A stretch of 7,406 nt of DNA, taken from NCBI GenBank assembly GCA_030630935.1, contig DAOVMD010000142.1:1-7406 (forward strand). The letters are read 5' to 3'. Within the stretch, counting starts at the first letter, position 1. Every line of letters begins with the position of its first letter. Made by a program: the position numbers and the translations under genes. The notes under the pieces were generated by a model. That model had not been told where the DNA came from, did not search any database, and saw only the letters and a list, made by a program, of their open reading frames with translations. This DNA is from Candidatus Mcinerneyibacteriota bacterium (GTDB lineage Bacteria; AUK180; JAQVHJ01). Below are positions 1 to 7,313 of the stretch, piece after piece.

Positions 1-1337
1 ATGTTTTTGTAATGTTACCTTCCTGTGTTCCTGCTACGAATTTCGAGACTTCAGGTGCAGCATTAAAAGCATTTGACCTTCATCCATTAATGAAGGAGAA
101 GTGGGTAGTAGGTTTAGGTGAGATGATGAATTTTCCCGGCGTATTAAATAAGGATCCCGTTGTACTTGACAAGATTTCAATTGCGATGGGCGAGCGTATT
201 GATGGTCATGCTCCCGGTTTATCTGGGAAGCAGTTAAATGCATATATTTCAGTAGGAATAACCTCAGATCATGAATGTACCGTCAAAGAAGAAGCTCTTG
301 AAAAGTTGCAGAAGGGAATGTATATAATGATAAGGGAGGGTACTGCGACTAAGAACCTTGAAGCGTTATATCCTGTCATAAATGATTTTAATATTTCACG
401 AATTATGTTCTGTACAGATGACCGTCATCCTAATGATTTGTTAAATGAAGGGCATATTGATTTTATTATCCGTAAGGCAATTAAACTTGGGCTTGATCCA
501 ATCAAGGCGATTAGAATTGCAACATTAAATCCTGCTTTATACTTTCGTTTGGAGAAGCTTGGAGCGATTGCACCGGGCTATATGGCCGATCTTGTAATTT
601 TAAATAATCTTGAAGATTTAGATATTTATAAAGTCTTAAAAAACGGTAAATTTATTTCAGAAGGTAAAAAACTTACATTCATACCACCACAGTATCCCGA
701 GCTCAGGATCCGCGGTACGGTAAATATTAAATGGCTTGATGAGAAAGATTTCATGATCCCTGCAAAAGAGGGTAAGAAAGCGAATATAATTAAAATTATA
801 CCGAACCAGATTATTACAACTGCGATTAAGGACTATCCAAAAATTAAAGATGGTTATGTTGAACCTGATACTGAGAAAGATATTTTAATAATGGCAGTTG
901 TTGAAAGGCATCTTGCTTCGGGTAATATTGGTCTTGGCTTGGTAAAGGGATTTGGTTTAAAAGAAGGCGCGATTGCATCATCTGTTGCGCATGATTCTCA
1001 TAATATAATTGTAGTAGGAACCAATGCAAAAGATATTTTACGTGCAGTGATAAGGGTCCGCAGCAGGCAAGGCGGGCTTGTTTTTGCAAAAGATGGTGAG
1101 GTAGTAGAGAATTTACCCTTACCGATTGCGGGTTTAATGTCCAGGGAACCATTAGAAATTGTTCATGAAAAAATGGAAAGTCTAATAAAAGCAGTTCAAT
1201 CTGCAGGTTCTTCTTTAAGTGCTCCATTTATGCAGATGTCTTTCCTTGCATTACCGGTAATTCCTGAAATAAAATTAACTGATCAAGGTTTGTTTGATGT
1301 AATGCAATTTAAATATATTGATCTTTTTGAAGAATAG
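1..1337 (+). CDS. ade: Adenine deaminase, 5'-truncated by window edge
   Basis: The product hydrolyses adenine to hypoxanthine and ammonia in purine salvage, as a cytoplasmic metal-dependent amidohydrolase. The frame is open back to the left edge: the codons before the ATG at 12 read V-F-V, and VFVMLPSCVPAT matches an internal conserved stretch of the family. That ATG is therefore internal, and the real start lies outside the window. Bacterial AdeC proteins are about 575-600 residues, so roughly 130 N-terminal residues are missing. Counting from the ATG at 12, conserved blocks are GEMMNFPGV (36-44), DGHAPGLSG (64-72) with SDHE (85-88), FCTDDRHPNDLL (133-144), and GYMADLVIL (189-197), which closes the amidohydrolase part. 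The adenine-deaminase C-terminal domain follows, with GLGLVKGFGL (307-316), VAHDSHNIIVVGTN (325-338) and LPLPIAGLMS (368-377). The stop TAG is at 1335-1337, and a permease gene begins 7 bp later. The identity is secure. Any link between purine salvage and the transporter is inference. Confidence 0.93.
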   Translation, partial: VFVMLPSCVPATNFETSGAALKAFDLHPLMKEKWVVGLGEMMNFPGVLNKDPVVLDKISIAMGERIDGHAPGLSGKQLNAYISVGITSDHECTVKEEALEKLQKGMYIMIREGTATKNLEALYPVINDFNISRIMFCTDDRHPNDLLNEGHIDFIIRKAIKLGLDPIKAIRIATLNPALYFRLEKLGAIAPGYMADLVILNNLEDLDIYKVLKNGKFISEGKKLTFIPPQYPELRIRGTVNIKWLDEKDFMIPAKEGKKANIIKIIPNQIITTAIKDYPKIKDGYVEPDTEKDILIMAVVERHLASGNIGLGLVKGFGLKEGAIASSVAHDSHNIIVVGTNAKDILRAVIRVRSRQGGLVFAKDGEVVENLPLPIAGLMSREPLEIVHEKMESLIKAVQSAGSSLSAPFMQMSFLALPVIPEIKLTDQGLFDVMQFKYIDLFEE

Positions 1338-1344
1338 GTGAAAC

Positions 1345-2310
1345 ATGAATTCAAAAATGAATAAACTACTAAACAAGGGTTGGTTTTTAGCACTCATCTT
1401 TTTAGGACCTGCATTTTTGTTCCTAATGGTTTTTAAGATTATACCTATAATTTATGCATTGATTATTTCAATGTCCGATTATGAATTCAAATTTTCTGGT
1501 ATAGTATGGTTTAAAAATTATATTCTTGTTTTCAAAGATGCAAAGTTCTGGCAAGCCTTAGTTAATACTTTCTGGTATGTTTGTTTATCAATACCATTGA
1601 CATTAGTAATATCATTATTTTTTGCAGTGCTATTAAACTTAGGAATTAAAGCTCGAAGTTTCTTTAGAACTTCCTATTTTCTGCCGTATATTACTTCAAT
1701 GGTTGCAGCTGCAATTGTTTGGAAAGCTTTGTATCATCCTACTGATGGGGGAGTTATAAACTCAATTCTGGGGATAGTTAACATTAACCCGCTGTTATGG
1801 CTGGAAGAACCCCGCGGGATATTTAATATGATGTTTAATTTAAATCTTCCGGGTGCATTAGGAGGACCCAGTTTAGCACTATTCGCAATTATCCTCTTCA
1901 GTGCATGGAAGGTCATGGGATACCAGGTAGTAATCTTACTCGCAGGTCTCCAAAATGTTCCTCATGAGTTATATGAAGCTGCAAGAATTGACGGAGCAAA
2001 TAGAATTCAGCAATTCTTTAAAATTACATTACCGTTATTAACACCAACTTTATATTTTCTGGTGATTACATCGACAATATTTTCGTTTAGAGTATTCGCC
2101 CCGATTTATATGATGACCGGTGGTGAAGCTGGTGGAGCACCGGATGGAACAACGTTAGTAACTGCATTTTATATGTATCAATGGGCTTTTGCTCCCGGGT
2201 ATAATGATTTCGGATATGCCGCATCAATGGCATTTATCCTATTCTTTATCATTCTTGCATTCACATGGGTACAGCGTAAGTTCAGTGAGAAAAAGATTCA
2301 CTATCAATAA
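1345..2310 (+). CDS. ABC sugar-type transporter permease, MalF/UgpA-like
   Basis: This 321-residue inner-membrane protein is one of the two permease subunits of a carbohydrate-type (CUT1-like) ABC importer. Hydrophobic segments lie near residues 13-42, 73-98, 110-129, 175-200, 230-252 and 291-310, the usual six-helix pattern with a cytoplasmic N-terminus. The EAA loop that docks on the ATPase is clear: EAARIDGA at 211-218, followed by KITLPLLTP at 226-234. Other family signatures are GPAFLFL (21-27), RTSYFLPY (108-115) and WKALYHP (126-132). The length is ordinary, and the large extra periplasmic loop of E. coli MalF is absent. The ATG at 1345 has an AGGTG just upstream with short spacing; the next in-frame ATG, at 1357, has no such site. 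The gene sits 7 bp after adenine deaminase and 11 bp before the partner permease. The substrate cannot be read from the sequence; sugars, polyols and glycerol-3-phosphate are the usual range. Confidence 0.92.
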   Translation: MNSKMNKLLNKGWFLALIFLGPAFLFLMVFKIIPIIYALIISMSDYEFKFSGIVWFKNYILVFKDAKFWQALVNTFWYVCLSIPLTLVISLFFAVLLNLGIKARSFFRTSYFLPYITSMVAAAIVWKALYHPTDGGVINSILGIVNINPLLWLEEPRGIFNMMFNLNLPGALGGPSLALFAIILFSAWKVMGYQVVILLAGLQNVPHELYEAARIDGANRIQQFFKITLPLLTPTLYFLVITSTIFSFRVFAPIYMMTGGEAGGAPDGTTLVTAFYMYQWAFAPGYNDFGYAASMAFILFFIILAFTWVQRKFSEKKIHYQ

Positions 2311-2315
2311 AGGAG
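2311..2315 (+). promoter_or_regulatory. Ribosome binding site deciding a TTG start
   Basis: AGGAG begins directly after the stop codon of the upstream permease and lies 6 nt before the TTG at 2322. This spacing supports TTG initiation of the MalG-type permease over the unsupported ATG at 2349. Confidence 0.75.
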
Positions 2316-2321
2316 AATAAA

Positions 2322-3491
2322 TTGAAAGATGCAACTGAAAAATTATATATGCATGAAAAGATTCTATTTTATCTAGTCTTATCGTTGGGGTTGATCGTTG
2401 CAATTTATCCTTTTTTCTGGATGGTTGTAACATCTGTCAAAACTGATAAAGAAGCTATCTCAAATCCCCTTGCATTACCCACACATATTTTTAAGAATAC
2501 TGTTGGTGTTAAAATTGAAGAAAAACTAAAACAGGAATCGGAGAATTTTCAACCGGTTCAATTTAAAGAGAAAAAACTTCCTGTTTATTTAAAAGCAGCA
2601 AAAAAAGATTTAATAATGGGAGTTGTGAAAATAAAAGCTGAGATTGACGAGAATGGAAATATTACAAAATCAAAGATTGCATTTTCAAATACATATTTTA
2701 AAGCTCTCGAGCAAGAGGTTTTATCAGCATTCAACGAATCGAAATTCAAACCTGCAACCCTTGATGGTAAATCGGTTCCAGTGAAGATTAATGTAACATA
2801 TCAATTTACTCTGGCAGGAATTTATAACTTCAAAAGAGTTTTCCATGAGGAGCCCTATTTCTTCAGGTTCTTTTTAAATAGTGTATTTGTTGCGGTTATC
2901 TCAACAATATTAAGTCTTTTCTTAACTGCAATGGCAGCATTTGCATTTGCCCGGCTTGAGTTCAAAGGTAAGGAGTTTATATTTACCATGTTCCTTGCAA
3001 CAATGATGATTCCGGCACAGATGCTGTTAATTCCAAATTTCTTAATTGTTGCAAAGGTTCTTAAGCTCTACGACACGTATGCAGCTTTAATTCTACCCGG
3101 ACTTGCAAATGTTTTTAATATTTTCTTATTACGTCAATTTTTTAAAGCAATCCCGCAGGATCTATTTGATGCGGCATCAATTGATGGAGCTAATACCTGG
3201 AGTGCTTTCTGGAAGATTTGCATACCATTATCAAAAACAATTTTAGTGACGACAGGTTTATTTGCATTTATTTTTCAGTGGAATTCTTTTATTTGGCCTT
3301 TGATAATCCCGACGTCTCCTGAAATTAGACCTATTCAAGTTGGGTTATCAACATTCTCCAGCCAGGCCGGGTCTGATTGGAATCTTCTCATGGCAGCGTC
3401 ATTTATTACGATTTTCCCATTAGTAATTCTTTATTTCTTTGCTCAGAAACAACTCATTCAGAGTTTGGCAAGAACAGGGCTGAAAGGGTAG
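2322..3491 (+). CDS. ABC sugar-type permease, MalG/UgpE-like, with TonB-C-like insert
   Basis: This is the second permease subunit of the importer, and at 389 residues it is about 100 longer than the usual 270-290. Helix 1 is at about 14-36 and ends in the family pattern YPFFWMVVTSVKT. The normal MalG core resumes at RFFLNSVFVAV (182-192), with later helices near 184-208, 218-242, 252-275, 302-322 and 354-374. The EAA loop reads DAASIDGA (283-290), followed by KICIPLSKT (298-306). Between helix 1 and helix 2, residues about 58-165 form an extra region whose core (85-163) resembles a TonB C-terminal domain. A MalG-type N-terminus is cytoplasmic, so this insert should be periplasmic. The chosen start is TTG at 2322, because AGGAG at 2311-2315 sits 6 nt upstream; the next in-frame ATG (2349) would remove nine residues and lacks such a site. 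The frame is unbroken and both flanks are MalG-type, so this is an internal domain insertion, not a join of two neighbouring genes. The stop lies 5 bp before the binding-protein ATG. Confidence 0.9.
   Translation: MKDATEKLYMHEKILFYLVLSLGLIVAIYPFFWMVVTSVKTDKEAISNPLALPTHIFKNTVGVKIEEKLKQESENFQPVQFKEKKLPVYLKAAKKDLIMGVVKIKAEIDENGNITKSKIAFSNTYFKALEQEVLSAFNESKFKPATLDGKSVPVKINVTYQFTLAGIYNFKRVFHEEPYFFRFFLNSVFVAVISTILSLFLTAMAAFAFARLEFKGKEFIFTMFLATMMIPAQMLLIPNFLIVAKVLKLYDTYAALILPGLANVFNIFLLRQFFKAIPQDLFDAASIDGANTWSAFWKICIPLSKTILVTTGLFAFIFQWNSFIWPLIIPTSPEIRPIQVGLSTFSSQAGSDWNLLMAASFITIFPLVILYFFAQKQLIQSLARTGLKG
2574..2810 (+). other. TonB C-terminal-like domain inside the MalG-type permease
   Basis: This region covers residues 85-163 of the permease. 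What I see is an N-terminal LPVYLKAAK, like the P-x-Y-P-x-x-A opening of TonB_C. Then comes GVVKIKAEIDENGNITKSK, like the G-x-V-x-V-x-x-x-I-D-x-x-G-x-V strand pair, followed by IAFSN. A helix pattern ALEQEVLSAF leads to KFKPATLDGKSVPV (the F-x-P-A-x-x-x-G-x-P-V block), and a final strand INVTYQF ends the domain. These elements occur in the order and spacing of the TonB C-terminal family, which folds as a small alpha/beta domain in the periplasm. A charged, helix-prone linker (residues about 63-84, with EEKLKQESENF) precedes it. The family assignment is pattern recognition without a profile search. A role in contacting an outer-membrane receptor or the binding protein is inference. Confidence 0.82.
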
Positions 3492-3496
3492 TGAAT

Positions 3497-4753
3497 ATGA
3501 AACTAAAAAATCTCACAAAGTTTATTATTATAATTCTGATTGCATTCTTTATATTTTCAAGCTGCAACAGGAATAAAAAAGACGATAAGACCTTAATTTT
3601 CTGGCATGTTATGGGCGGACGAATTCTTGGTGACGCATTAAATGAACTTGTAGATAAGTATAATGCTACCAATCCGGAATATAAAGTTGTTGCAATTCAT
3701 AAAGGTAAATACAGTTCATTAATCCAATCAATTATGGCATCAATCCCAGCAGACATGCTTCCTGATATTACACAAGCATACGAATCCTGGATCACTAAAA
3801 TGGATACAGCAGATGTTGTTGTATGTCTCGACGATTATTTGGAAGATAAAACGATACTTGATGATTTCTACCCGGTACTTTATCGAAACAGTATGTACGA
3901 CGGTAGATTTTTATCCATGCCTTTTAATAAAAGTGTTTATGTGATGTATTATAATAAAGATATGTTTGAACTTCATGACAAAACCCCGCCTAAAACGTGG
4001 GATGAATTCTATGATTTATGTAAGTATTTCACAAAAGATGAAGATAATGACGGGAACCCGGAACGTGTAGGATTTGCTTTTATTCCATCAAACGGATTGT
4101 ATTTAACATTATTTAAATCTTTTGGCGGAGAAATTTCTGATGACCCGCAATCTTTTCTTAACCTGGATTCACCAGCTGGCTTAAAAGCATTTACATTCTT
4201 ACATGATTTGCTACATAAAGAACGTTCAATTAAAAGATTTTCAGGTTATGAATTTCAGAATGATTTTGCACAGGAAAAGGCAGCAATGATTATTACATCC
4301 TGCGTATCACGGTCTTATTTTGAGAAAAAATTAAATTTCAAGTTAGGTATTGCGCCCTTACCCGGGGATAAAGTTGCAACAACAGTTCTTCAGGGAACCA
4401 ACCTTGTAATCTGTAAGAGCAACCCTGAGCGTGAGCGTGCAGCATTTAAATTCCTTAAGTTCTTGATGGAACCTGAGAATGTTGCATTTTGGGCTATCAG
4501 AACAAAGTATGTACCTGTAAGACGTTCAGCTTTGGAGACAGAAATCTACAAAGATGCTTTAGAAAAGGATCCGCTGCTGGCTGTACCGCTTGAGCAGTTA
4601 AATGAATCATTCTTTGAACCAAGAGTAATTCAATGGTATCGGTGCAGAACAATTTTATCTGATACAATTGATAAGGTTGTTACGGACAGGAAAAAACCTA
4701 AAGAAGGTTTAGAATATGCAATTAAAAAAATAAAAAAGGAGATTCATCATTAA
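3497..4753 (+). CDS. Extracellular solute-binding lipoprotein of the ABC importer
   Basis: This 418-residue protein captures the substrate and delivers it to the two permeases encoded upstream. The start is ATG at 3497: it gives a clean lipoprotein signal, MKLKNLTK followed by a hydrophobic run (9-20) and a lipobox-like FSSC with Cys23 as the predicted lipidated residue. The same frame is open further upstream inside the permease gene, but starting there would place about 40 polar residues ahead of the signal. AAAGGG at 3483-3488 is a plausible ribosome site. Family 1 binding-protein features include LIFWHVMGG (33-41), YYNKDMF (151-157), PPKTWDEFYDL (164-174), DEDNDGNPERVGF (181-193), EKAAMIITS (260-268), GIAPLPG (284-290), and a C-terminal KFLKFLMEPENVAFWA (318-333) typical of UgpB/MalE relatives. 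The order permease-permease-binding protein is compact, with 5 bp separating this gene from the last permease. The ligand is not identifiable. Whether the lipid anchor is in the inner or outer membrane is also unknown; Asn, not Asp, follows the Cys. Confidence 0.92.
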   Translation: MKLKNLTKFIIIILIAFFIFSSCNRNKKDDKTLIFWHVMGGRILGDALNELVDKYNATNPEYKVVAIHKGKYSSLIQSIMASIPADMLPDITQAYESWITKMDTADVVVCLDDYLEDKTILDDFYPVLYRNSMYDGRFLSMPFNKSVYVMYYNKDMFELHDKTPPKTWDEFYDLCKYFTKDEDNDGNPERVGFAFIPSNGLYLTLFKSFGGEISDDPQSFLNLDSPAGLKAFTFLHDLLHKERSIKRFSGYEFQNDFAQEKAAMIITSCVSRSYFEKKLNFKLGIAPLPGDKVATTVLQGTNLVICKSNPERERAAFKFLKFLMEPENVAFWAIRTKYVPVRRSALETEIYKDALEKDPLLAVPLEQLNESFFEPRVIQWYRCRTILSDTIDKVVTDRKKPKEGLEYAIKKIKKEIHH

Positions 4754-4767
4754 TATTTTAATATTTT
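4752..4767 (+). repeat. Two tandem copies of AATATTTT
   Basis: The 27-bp spacer between the binding-protein gene and the chemoreceptor gene opens with a perfect 8-bp tandem duplication, beginning inside the stop codon. It is purely A+T and sits just before the chemoreceptor ribosome site. It could keep the translation start unstructured or be chance in an AT-rich genome. No convincing -35 element is placed to make it a promoter, and no terminator hairpin is present in this spacer, the largest in the window. Confidence 0.5.
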
Positions 4768-4773
4768 GGAGAG
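4768..4773 (+). promoter_or_regulatory. Ribosome binding site of the chemoreceptor gene
   Basis: GGAGAG lies 7 nt before the ATG at 4781. It overlaps an in-frame TTG at 4766, which therefore cannot use it, so the ATG is preferred as the start. Confidence 0.75.
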
Positions 4774-4780
4774 TAATTCA

Positions 4781-6487
4781 ATGAAAATTCGAAATCTAAA
4801 ATTTCGGTTAGGAATTAGAGTTCGCTTAATGATTGCAATTGTAGTACCATCTCTAATAATTATTTTAATCTTAACAGGGATTTATGGTAATAGAGAGAGA
4901 TCTACATTGCAAACTGAATATGAAAAACGTGTTATTTCGCTTGCTAAAATCTTAGCTCATTCCAGCCAGGTAGGAGTTTTAACTGCAGATAAATCATTTC
5001 TTGACCAACCTTTCTCAGGAATTTTTGAGTCAAATAAAGATTTGAAATATGCAGCAGCTTATGATTTAACCGGCAATGCTGTCATTTCCCGGGAGGAAGG
5101 GGAGGATATGGTTGTTCCATTAAGCATTCCTACAGATATCTTAACACAAATTAAAGATAAACCAATTTCCTTAGTATTTATCCAAAATAAATTAATGGTT
5201 TCTTATGAACCGATATTTCAAATTACTGATGAACAGAAAGAATTAATAGGTGTAATATACTTAGCTTTTTCTACTAAGTATATAGATGAGAGATCCAGAG
5301 CGACAAAAAAGACAGGTTATGCTCTGTTTGTTACTTTCTTTATTATTTGTATTATTATTGCATTGTTTTTTAGTCATATTTTGGTCACGCCAATTAAAAC
5401 CCTGGTTCAAAGGTTCAAAGAATTTGCTCAAGGCGAAGGTGATCTTACCAAGAGGATTGAGAAATTATCAAATGATGAATTAGGAGATCTAGGTGAGTGG
5501 TTTAATATTTATTTAGATAATACAGAAAAGATGGTGAGGAAGATTAAGGGTATTTCAAAATCCGTCTTATCATTTGCAGAGAATCTTTCAGCATCATCTG
5601 AAGAGATGTCTGCTTCTACTGAAGAAATATCTTCAACTATTCAGGAGATATCTGAAGGTATGAACAGGCAGACTGTTAAGGTTAAAGAATCAAATGATTT
5701 AGTAAGTCAGTTTCAGGATACTGCAAAGAACATTGCAGAGAACTCAAGAATTACAAATGAAATGTATAAGAAGATGAGTAAGATCGCTATTGAGAACCGG
5801 CAGGATATTGATAAATCTACCGCTGCATTAATGGAGATTAAAGAGGTTGTTGAAAATTCTGCAAAGGTCATTATGGAGTTAAATGATTTATCTCAACAGA
5901 TTGGGAATTTTGTAAATACGATCAAAGCAATTGCAAATCAAACAAATCTATTATCATTAAATGCATCAATTGAAGCAGCAAGAGCTGGTGAAGCAGGACG
6001 AGGTTTTGGAGTTGTTGCCGAACAGATTAAGAAACTTGCAACTGAATCAGCTGAAGCATCTGAAGAAGTTGAAACGATGATAGAGAAGGTTCAGGAACAG
6101 GTAGAAGAGGTTGTTGGAACAATGGCTGTTGGTGCAGAAAAGGTGAAGGGTGTTGGAGAGATGTCCAAGCGTTCAAAAAATGCTATGCAGATGGTTATGG
6201 AAGCAATTGCAAATGCAAAATTAAAGATTGAAGAAATCGAATCTATGACGAGTAATCAAGTTGCCGGAATTGAACAGATAGTTGAATCAATTACTGAGAT
6301 ATCTGCAATTGCAGAAGAGGGCGCTGCTGGTACAGAAGAAGCTTCCGCATCTACCGAAGAACAAGCTGCTTCCATGGAAGAACTTGCTGCATCTGCACTT
6401 GAACTTTCTAATATCGCCCGAGAATTAAAGGCTGAATTTGAAAAATTTACTACTAAAGTTGATCTTAAGGAGCAAAAATTTGAATAA
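4781..6487 (+). CDS. Methyl-accepting chemotaxis protein (transmembrane chemoreceptor)
   Basis: This 568-residue receptor would signal to the CheA/CheW array in response to a periplasmic stimulus. It has a basic N-terminus, helix 1 at about 17-36, a periplasmic sensor of about 140 residues (37-177), and helix 2 at about 178-200. A HAMP module follows (about 200-253, with [10 protein letters not shown] and [10 protein letters not shown]), then a long cytoplasmic coiled-coil signalling domain. The hairpin tip is canonical: [20 protein letters not shown] at 381-400, then [20 protein letters not shown] at 401-420. Glu/Ser/Thr-rich stretches around 269-285 and 517-535 look like methylation helices, with ASTEE occurring in both. 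The sensor contains [13 protein letters not shown] (91-103), a Cache/CHASE-like strand pattern, but I cannot name its ligand or subfamily. The C-terminus (LKEQKFE) lacks the NWETF-type CheR tether. The gene starts 27 bp after the binding-protein gene, so it may report on the same substrate, either directly or through the binding protein. That link is inference. No che genes are in the window. Confidence 0.95.
6467..6472 (+). promoter_or_regulatory. Ribosome binding site inside the chemoreceptor 3' end
   Basis: AAGGAG, the strongest Shine-Dalgarno match in the window, is embedded in the last codons of the chemoreceptor gene, 7 nt before an in-frame TTG at 6480. It sets the start of the LipM-like gene at that TTG rather than at the upstream ATG at 6438, and points to translational coupling between the two genes. 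Confidence 0.8.
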
Positions 6488-7313
6488 AGAATTTCGAATT
6501 ATTATTGATCAAAATCCTAATTCTTCCCAGGTTAATATGGCAGTTGATGAAGCCATATTTTTAAATTATATTACAGCTCAAAACCCGATTCCGGTTCTAA
6601 GATTTTATAGATGGGATCCTCCCGCTATTTCAATTGGATATTTTCAGAAACCTGAAGATATTGATATTGAAAGTTGTAAAAGAATGAATATTGAGTTTAT
6701 AAGGAGACCTACTGGTGGAAGAAGTGTTCTTCATGATAATGAATTAACATATTCAGTTATCGGAGGAAAGGAAAAGTTCTTTGAAAATAAATCTTTAATT
6801 GATATATATTCAATCATCTCAAAAGCTCTTGTGAAAGGGTTAAGAAAATATGGATTTGAAGTTGAATTTAAAAAACCCGATTATAAAAATAATCAATATC
6901 ATTTGAAAGTTCTTTGCTTTGATTCAACTTCAACTTTCGAAATAACTTTAAATAATAAAAAAGTAGTTGGTAGTGCACAAGTTCGGAAAAAAGGCGTTTT
7001 CCTTCAGCACGGTTCTATAATTCTTAGTCTTGATAAAGAAAAAGTTGCCCGGTTACTAAAAATTAAAAATATAAAGCTCCTTGAGAAAGCTTCCGGGTTA
7101 CTTGATGAAATGAAAATTCAAAACTTTGAGATTGAAAGATTAATCTCAAATCTGGTTTCAGGATTTTCCGAGGTATTTGGAATGGAAACATGTAAATCAA
7201 TATTGTCGGAACAAGAAATTGACTTCACACAATTATTAATCGAAAATAAATATTCCAAAGCCTCATGGAATATAAATGCAAAAGAAATTAAAAATGAAAA
7301 AGTCACAATTTGA
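6480..7313 (+). CDS. lipM: LipM-like octanoyltransferase / lipoate-protein ligase family
   Basis: This 277-residue cytoplasmic enzyme belongs to the biotin/lipoate A/B ligase family, which loads octanoyl or lipoyl groups on lipoyl domains (GcvH and 2-oxoacid dehydrogenase E2). Visible signatures are NMAVDEAIF (19-27), [16 protein letters not shown] (41-56), [19 protein letters not shown] (75-93), [20 protein letters not shown] (161-180) and a late NKYSKASWN (256-264). A cysteine in the VLCFDS context (Cys146) aligns by motif with the acyl-accepting Cys of B. subtilis LipM. K161, before the VVGSAQ motif, matches the conserved acyl-binding lysine. The length is close to that of LipM (about 278), and the extra C-terminal domain of E. 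coli LplA is absent. These points favour an octanoyltransferase over an ATP-using ligase, but the two are hard to separate by sequence alone. The start is TTG at 6480, 7 nt after AAGGAG, overlapping the chemoreceptor stop by 8 bp. The upstream ATG at 6438 would only add residues read from inside the receptor gene. The next gene overlaps its 3' end by 20 bp. Confidence 0.85.

Follow-up and report, generated by a model that had tools for sequence, protein, structure and literature searches.

Results

The locus and its gene neighborhood

The window (the whole stretch of 7,406 nucleotides that was analysed) comes from a draft genome, G000, with a total length of 3.16 Mb, 471 contigs and 80% completeness. 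All genes of the window are situated on the + strand, to which all coordinates below refer; they code for an adenine deaminase, two CUT1-type permeases, a solute-binding protein, a chemoreceptor and a lipoate-ligase-like protein. The adenine deaminase (1..1337; TIGR01178, 534.7 bits) is the first operon gene seen; its 5' part is cut by the window end, and its place in the gene order is shared with relatives. Next come PermA (1345..2310), a MalF/UgpA-type partner permease matching BPD_transp_1 and having UgpA as the best NCBIfam match, and PermB (2322..3491), the main subject of this work. The solute-binding protein (3497..4753; SBP_bac_8, E 6e-44) starts with a lipoprotein-like signal (..FIFSSC), the lipobox being read from the sequence. 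Ahead of the TTG start of PermB we observed a Shine-Dalgarno-like AGGAG (2311..2315), while the PermB ortholog in genome G001 has ATG in the position aligned with this TTG.

Within the phylum, the comparison included seven genomes: G000 and G001, which make one family, and G002-G006, which make a sister family. The binding-protein gene is located directly downstream of PermB in the window, and the same holds for all six relatives (the G001 copy is partial, at a contig end). It is followed by a gene of a methyl-accepting chemotaxis protein in the window as well as in all five sister-family genomes. Within contig reach, the sister-family operon consists of a phosphopentomutase-like gene (assigned by inspection), adenine deaminase, PermA, PermB, the binding protein, the chemoreceptor and the lipoate ligase. 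We also observed that the operon order (window 1-7313; L042-L047) is kept through the phylum, with the phosphopentomutase-like gene standing ahead of it in the relatives.

This conserved content points to a substrate of the nucleoside or ribose type and to chemotaxis tied to the importer. We recognised no gene of a cognate ATPase in the window or in the conserved operon, and no gene of a TonB-dependent receptor in the operon of the window or of its relatives.

PermB is a MalG-type permease with an extended loop 1

The 389 aa PermB has, in a single open reading frame, a match to BPD_transp_1 (PF00528; residues 204-378, 60.3 bits) and a match to TonB_C (PF03544; residues 87-164, 44.2 bits for the whole protein). 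An AlphaFold2 model was made from a 12-row alignment with a mean pLDDT of 79. The best structural matches of the model were the alginate importer, SugB and MalG chains, with Z of 20-24. The PF00528 match, the MalG fold and an operon that also encodes a partner permease and a binding protein identify PermB as a MalG-type (CUT1) ABC importer permease.

Transmembrane helix 1 (residues 8-41; 2343..2444) was located by hydropathy and corresponds to the model helix 2-38. It is followed by the lead-in of loop 1 (residues 42-86; 2445..2579), which was delimited by alignments and modelled with low to middling pLDDT. The lead-in carries the motif 'NPLALP', common to the sister family, where it is found at the insert boundary. 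The TonB_C domain itself takes residues 87-164 (2580..2813). Right behind its last strand, a modelled helix (residues 165-176; 2814..2849) leads towards TM2, the next helix being 180-211. The permease core, from TM2 to the end of the protein (2820..3491), has 87% identity between the two fused orthologs described below. Overall, loop 1 of PermB has 134 residues compared to 25 in short-loop orthologs. A preliminary description of the locus had put the excess between helices 1 and 2 at about 100 residues; by our count it is ~109.

The insert is a TonB C-terminal domain

The same description had claimed a TonB C-terminal-like domain in the first periplasmic loop of the MalG-type permease and had proposed an HMM search of the insert against PF03544. 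In this search, the insert alone scored 47.7 bits (E 2.2e-12), well above the curated cut-off of 24.6 bits, and the match spanned model positions 3-79 of 79, i.e., nearly the whole model. The TIGR01352 (tonB_Cterm) match to PermB was also above its own cut-off. A profile built only from the other TonB_C domains of the phylum found the insert with E 4e-18, while a profile-profile comparison of the insert with the TonB set, itself left out, gave E 1e-13. TonB2 (2k9k; E 0.0034) was the solved structure that the insert matched best in sequence.

The structural elements modelled with usable confidence are a helix at residues 88-92, strands at 100-108 and 114-122, a helix at 127-139 and a strand at 154-164. 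This helix-strand-strand-helix-strand order is the one expected for a TonB C-terminal domain. When the whole PermB model was searched with Foldseek and VIA-align, only permeases appeared among the matches listed, the core filling the lists.

The profile matches, with which the modelled element order agrees, confirm that the PermB insert is a complete TonB C-terminal domain located between helices 1 and 2. The domain claimed earlier is present, but its signature motifs need small corrections: Leu, and not Pro, comes after the Tyr of the opening motif (PVYL), and the proposed 'G-x-P-V' spacing is inexact, the last motif being FKPATLDGKSVPV.

TonB_C domains were also seen at the C-termini of proteins other than TonB in the phylum. 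For example, L051:2514-4106 codes for an AhpC/TSA thioredoxin fusion with a proline-rich linker and L075:790-1743 for a PEGA protein; further cases are a 478-residue repeat protein (L048:1808-3241) and a lipoprotein-like protein (L049:421-1155). An apparent Ton operon, recognised by inspection, is present in the window genome (G000 C230; L052:226-5508), with genes for a TonB-dependent receptor, an ExbB-like protein, three successive ExbD-like proteins and TonB.

Authenticity and spread of the fusion

In a draft as fragmented as G000, assembly or binning could in principle have joined a fragment of a TonB gene to a permease gene. However, the family's only other genome, G001, is a different draft and has kept the fusion in full length (73% identity over residues 1-389), in one open frame and in the same operon; the reading frame stays open across both junctions. 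Since a second genome carries it full length, the fusion is not an assembly error. A chimera is refuted in substance and we consider its probability negligible, in line with the earlier opinion that a gene-fusion artefact was unlikely.

The survey of orthologs, restricted to orthologs of PermB, covered 52 genomes: 7 of the phylum along with 39, 2 and 4 genomes of three other phyla. Judged by the best orthologs inspected or listed, the combination of BPD_transp_1 and TonB_C occurred in 2 of the 52 genomes, both in the family of the window. L023 (JAQVHJ010000194.1), which has the same match, probably belongs to the same genome and was not counted as a third. We found no description of this architecture in the open-access literature, and we know of no protein combining BPD_transp_1 with TonB_C.

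Variability of loop 1 among the orthologs

In the sister family, loop 1 of PermB has 126-230 residues (the G002 sequence is cut at the contig end) and opens with NPL-x-x-P, as in the window. The inserts of this family had no match to TonB_C or to any other Pfam family. The idea that they could be diverged TonB_C domains was rejected at the sequence level, with E of ~0.3-0.4 in profile-profile comparison and E of at least 0.5 in the profile search. A model of the sister-family PermB of L045, made from a 5-row alignment, had low confidence (mean pLDDT 36.5). By appearance, the loop 1 inserts of L045 and L046 (G004 and G005; 229-230 residues) are made of partly repeated short beta units (K-x-Y ... 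EVELL).

Among the orthologs of the second phylum (39 genomes) and of the others, some have a loop 1 of ~25 residues; therefore, transport as such needs no insert. Further classes outside the phylum are loops of 69-94 residues with a charged helical look and loops of ~73 residues with a beta look. We also noticed two unusual cases. In the MalG-type permease L130:657-2141 (G012), TM1 and TM2 are separated by an insert of ~217 residues, which includes two additional hydrophobic stretches that probably span the membrane. In L119:751-2157, loop 1 has 220 residues with coiled-coil-like repeats, compared to 69 in the close relatives L121 and L122, the cores being almost identical; this growth could be either a recent expansion or an assembly error.

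Comparison by hhalign showed a weak likeness (E 0.0027, probability 11%) between the ~73-residue beta insert and the C-terminal portion of the insert in the sister family; by eye, the likeness is shared with L147 from a third phylum. These comparisons give hints that a short beta insert in loop 1 may be old. If so, TonB_C would have replaced or joined it, in one family.

In the permease tree, the two sequences with TonB_C formed one group (100/97) and the sister family formed another (100/99); the two groups together made a clade (100/100). On this tree, the loop classes, seven in number, required seven changes, with six being the minimum, and the classes cluster. The contents of the loop have been swapped among orthologs; therefore, loop 1 of this permease branch is an insertion hotspot.

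Evolution of the embedded domain

When the two fused genes are compared, the TonB_C part has 50% identity with dN of 0.40, compared to 87% identity and dN of 0.088 for the permease core. Thus, the domain evolves 4-5 times faster than the core. The dN/dS ratio is not given because synonymous sites are saturated.

In the tree of the TonB_C domains of the phylum, the two inserts stand alone on a long stem (support 100/100, length 1.73), while their deeper placement is weakly supported. A recent copy from a TonB of the same genome is ruled out by such a position. The lone, long-stemmed pair fits one gain of TonB_C, in one family, as the probable origin of the insert.

Discussion

A proposed role of the embedded domain

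We propose that TonB_C in PermB has been co-opted as an arm for docking or retaining the operon's lipoprotein binding protein, and we give this reading a probability of roughly 0.5. A contact is suggested by position: the domain resides in loop P1 of the MalG-type subunit, and the binding-protein gene is the next one in the operon. In the proposed scenario, TonB_C would have been acquired once by the insertion hotspot of loop 1, in one family, and would stand on the periplasmic face of the importer. There it may hold the binding protein through a surface contact or through pairing of edge strands, the mode in which TonB_C domains bind TonB boxes. The domain would serve as a protein-binding module and not as an energy transducer, comparable to the way in which MalF, with its periplasmic domain, and MalG, with its loop P1, hold the maltose-binding protein.

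In the maltose importer, MalF has a separate periplasmic domain contacting the maltose-binding protein, and the contact of P1 with the binding protein is known mainly from MalG biochemistry and genetics. Loop P1 of MalG contacts MalE, and the N-lobe of MalE interacts mainly with MalG, according to Daus et al. (2007) as cited in PMC3150292. The arm is supported by the use of TonB_C outside Ton systems in the phylum, e.g., in the AhpC/TSA and PEGA fusions. The swapping of loop 1 contents from lineage to lineage fits partner-specific arms as well. The faster divergence of TonB_C than of the core would be expected of a partner-specific surface, though relaxed constraint fits equally. What counts against the arm is that only two genomes carry TonB_C in PermB and that relatives with a loop of 25 residues transport without any insert.

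Alternative explanations

The preliminary description had doubted that PermB works as an ordinary ExbB/D-powered TonB, and our data agree. Helix 1 is a permease helix, ILFYLVLSLGLIVAIYPFFWMVV, without the His that is nearly always present in the anchor helix of the bona fide TonBs of the phylum. The lead-in of about 48 residues has 4 Pro compared to 86-108 residues with 13-21 Pro in these TonBs, so both the TonB-type anchor and the long proline-rich spacer are missing. This is also a warning that a TonB_C match alone is no proof of an energy transducer. The description had further offered two docking partners, an outer-membrane TonB-dependent transporter or the binding protein. Docking across the envelope would mean that the domain binds the TonB box of the transporter and that the substrate is channelled directly to the importer. 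Receptors are plentiful, with 10 plug-domain matches in G000 (next to 13 TonB_C matches), and TonB_C domains do bind TonB boxes by pairing through strand beta-3 (PMC11658791). Still, the domain of PermB is tethered at both ends, with just ~15 residues, mostly helix in the model, between its end and TM2; therefore, it must stand on the inner membrane and can hardly reach the outer one. The periplasm is ~200 Å wide. TonB boxes, on the other hand, project only ~20-30 Å into it, as seen for BtuB (PMC11658791). Moreover, the Tyr-Pro motif found in nearly all other TonB_C domains of the phylum reads Tyr-Leu in both fused proteins, and no receptor gene was recognised in the operon. TonBs and receptors are present in all seven genomes of the phylum, so their presence does not separate the families, yet loop 1 of the sister family has an unrelated insert in place of TonB_C. 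Given the tethering, the operon and the sister family, we consider direct docking onto the outer-membrane transporter unsupported and very improbable, and favor the second option, docking of the binding protein. Slightly less credible again is the wider notion that the embedded domain binds TonB boxes, be they on receptors or, as a box-like strand, on some other protein of the envelope, and so couples the importer physically to an outer-membrane transporter. If true, TonB-box coupling would amount to a transport path across both membranes; to our knowledge, a direct path between an ABC importer and an outer-membrane transporter is known in no bacterium.

Two other explanations, while unlikely, deserve more weight. 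The domain could be a passive ornament, folding harmlessly in a loop that tolerates insertions and having no function worth naming. The loop contents do vary wildly and expand even in near-identical relatives (220 residues in L119 compared to 69 in L121 and L122), and the rate of divergence is 4-5 times higher in the domain than in the core. Nevertheless, it is maintained in full length, in frame and above the cut-off in two genera whose permeases are 27% different; synonymous change is saturated, with the dN of 0.40 staying far below it, and KKDLIMG and several other stretches are identical in both fused proteins. Somewhat more doubtful is that the arm binds a different periplasmic partner, such as the neighboring chemoreceptor, ExbD-like proteins, peptidoglycan or an assembly factor. 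Protein binding is a general property of TonB_C domains, and the chemotaxis gene comes after the binding-protein gene both in the window and in each of the five genomes of the sister family. However, the chemoreceptor gene is linked equally well where the insert is of another kind.

Significance and comparison with known systems

The TonB C-terminal domain, the textbook part for energising the outer membrane, can thus be inserted in the middle of an inner-membrane ABC permease. Loop P1 in the permease branch of PermB is a natural site of whole-domain swapping between relatives. This swapping gives an evolutionary handle on the role of loop P1 in type I importers and also marks a site tolerant of domain insertion.

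Compared to MalG of E. coli and the MalFGK2 complex (CUT1, a type I ABC importer), PermB has the same core fold (VIA Z ~22 to MalG chains), the site of its insert is loop P1, and the partner permease and the binding protein are encoded next to it. However, there is no domain in P1 of MalG; in MalFGK2 the large additional domain belongs to MalF and sits in loop P2 of that subunit, whereas the extra domain of PermB belongs to the MalG-type subunit and is of the TonB_C kind. With the C-terminal domain of TonB (PF03544, e.g., TonB2, 2k9k), the insert shares a full-length profile match and the order of elements. Unlike in TonB, the domain is placed between two permease helices, tethered at both ends, with neither the anchor nor the proline spacer, and has Tyr-Leu for Tyr-Pro. 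The closest parallel in usage is given by the non-Ton proteins of the phylum, L051 (AhpC/TSA), L075 (PEGA) and others, where TonB_C is joined to periplasmic or secreted proteins. In L051 and L075, though, the domain is C-terminal, while in PermB it lies within a polytopic transporter, as an internal insert.
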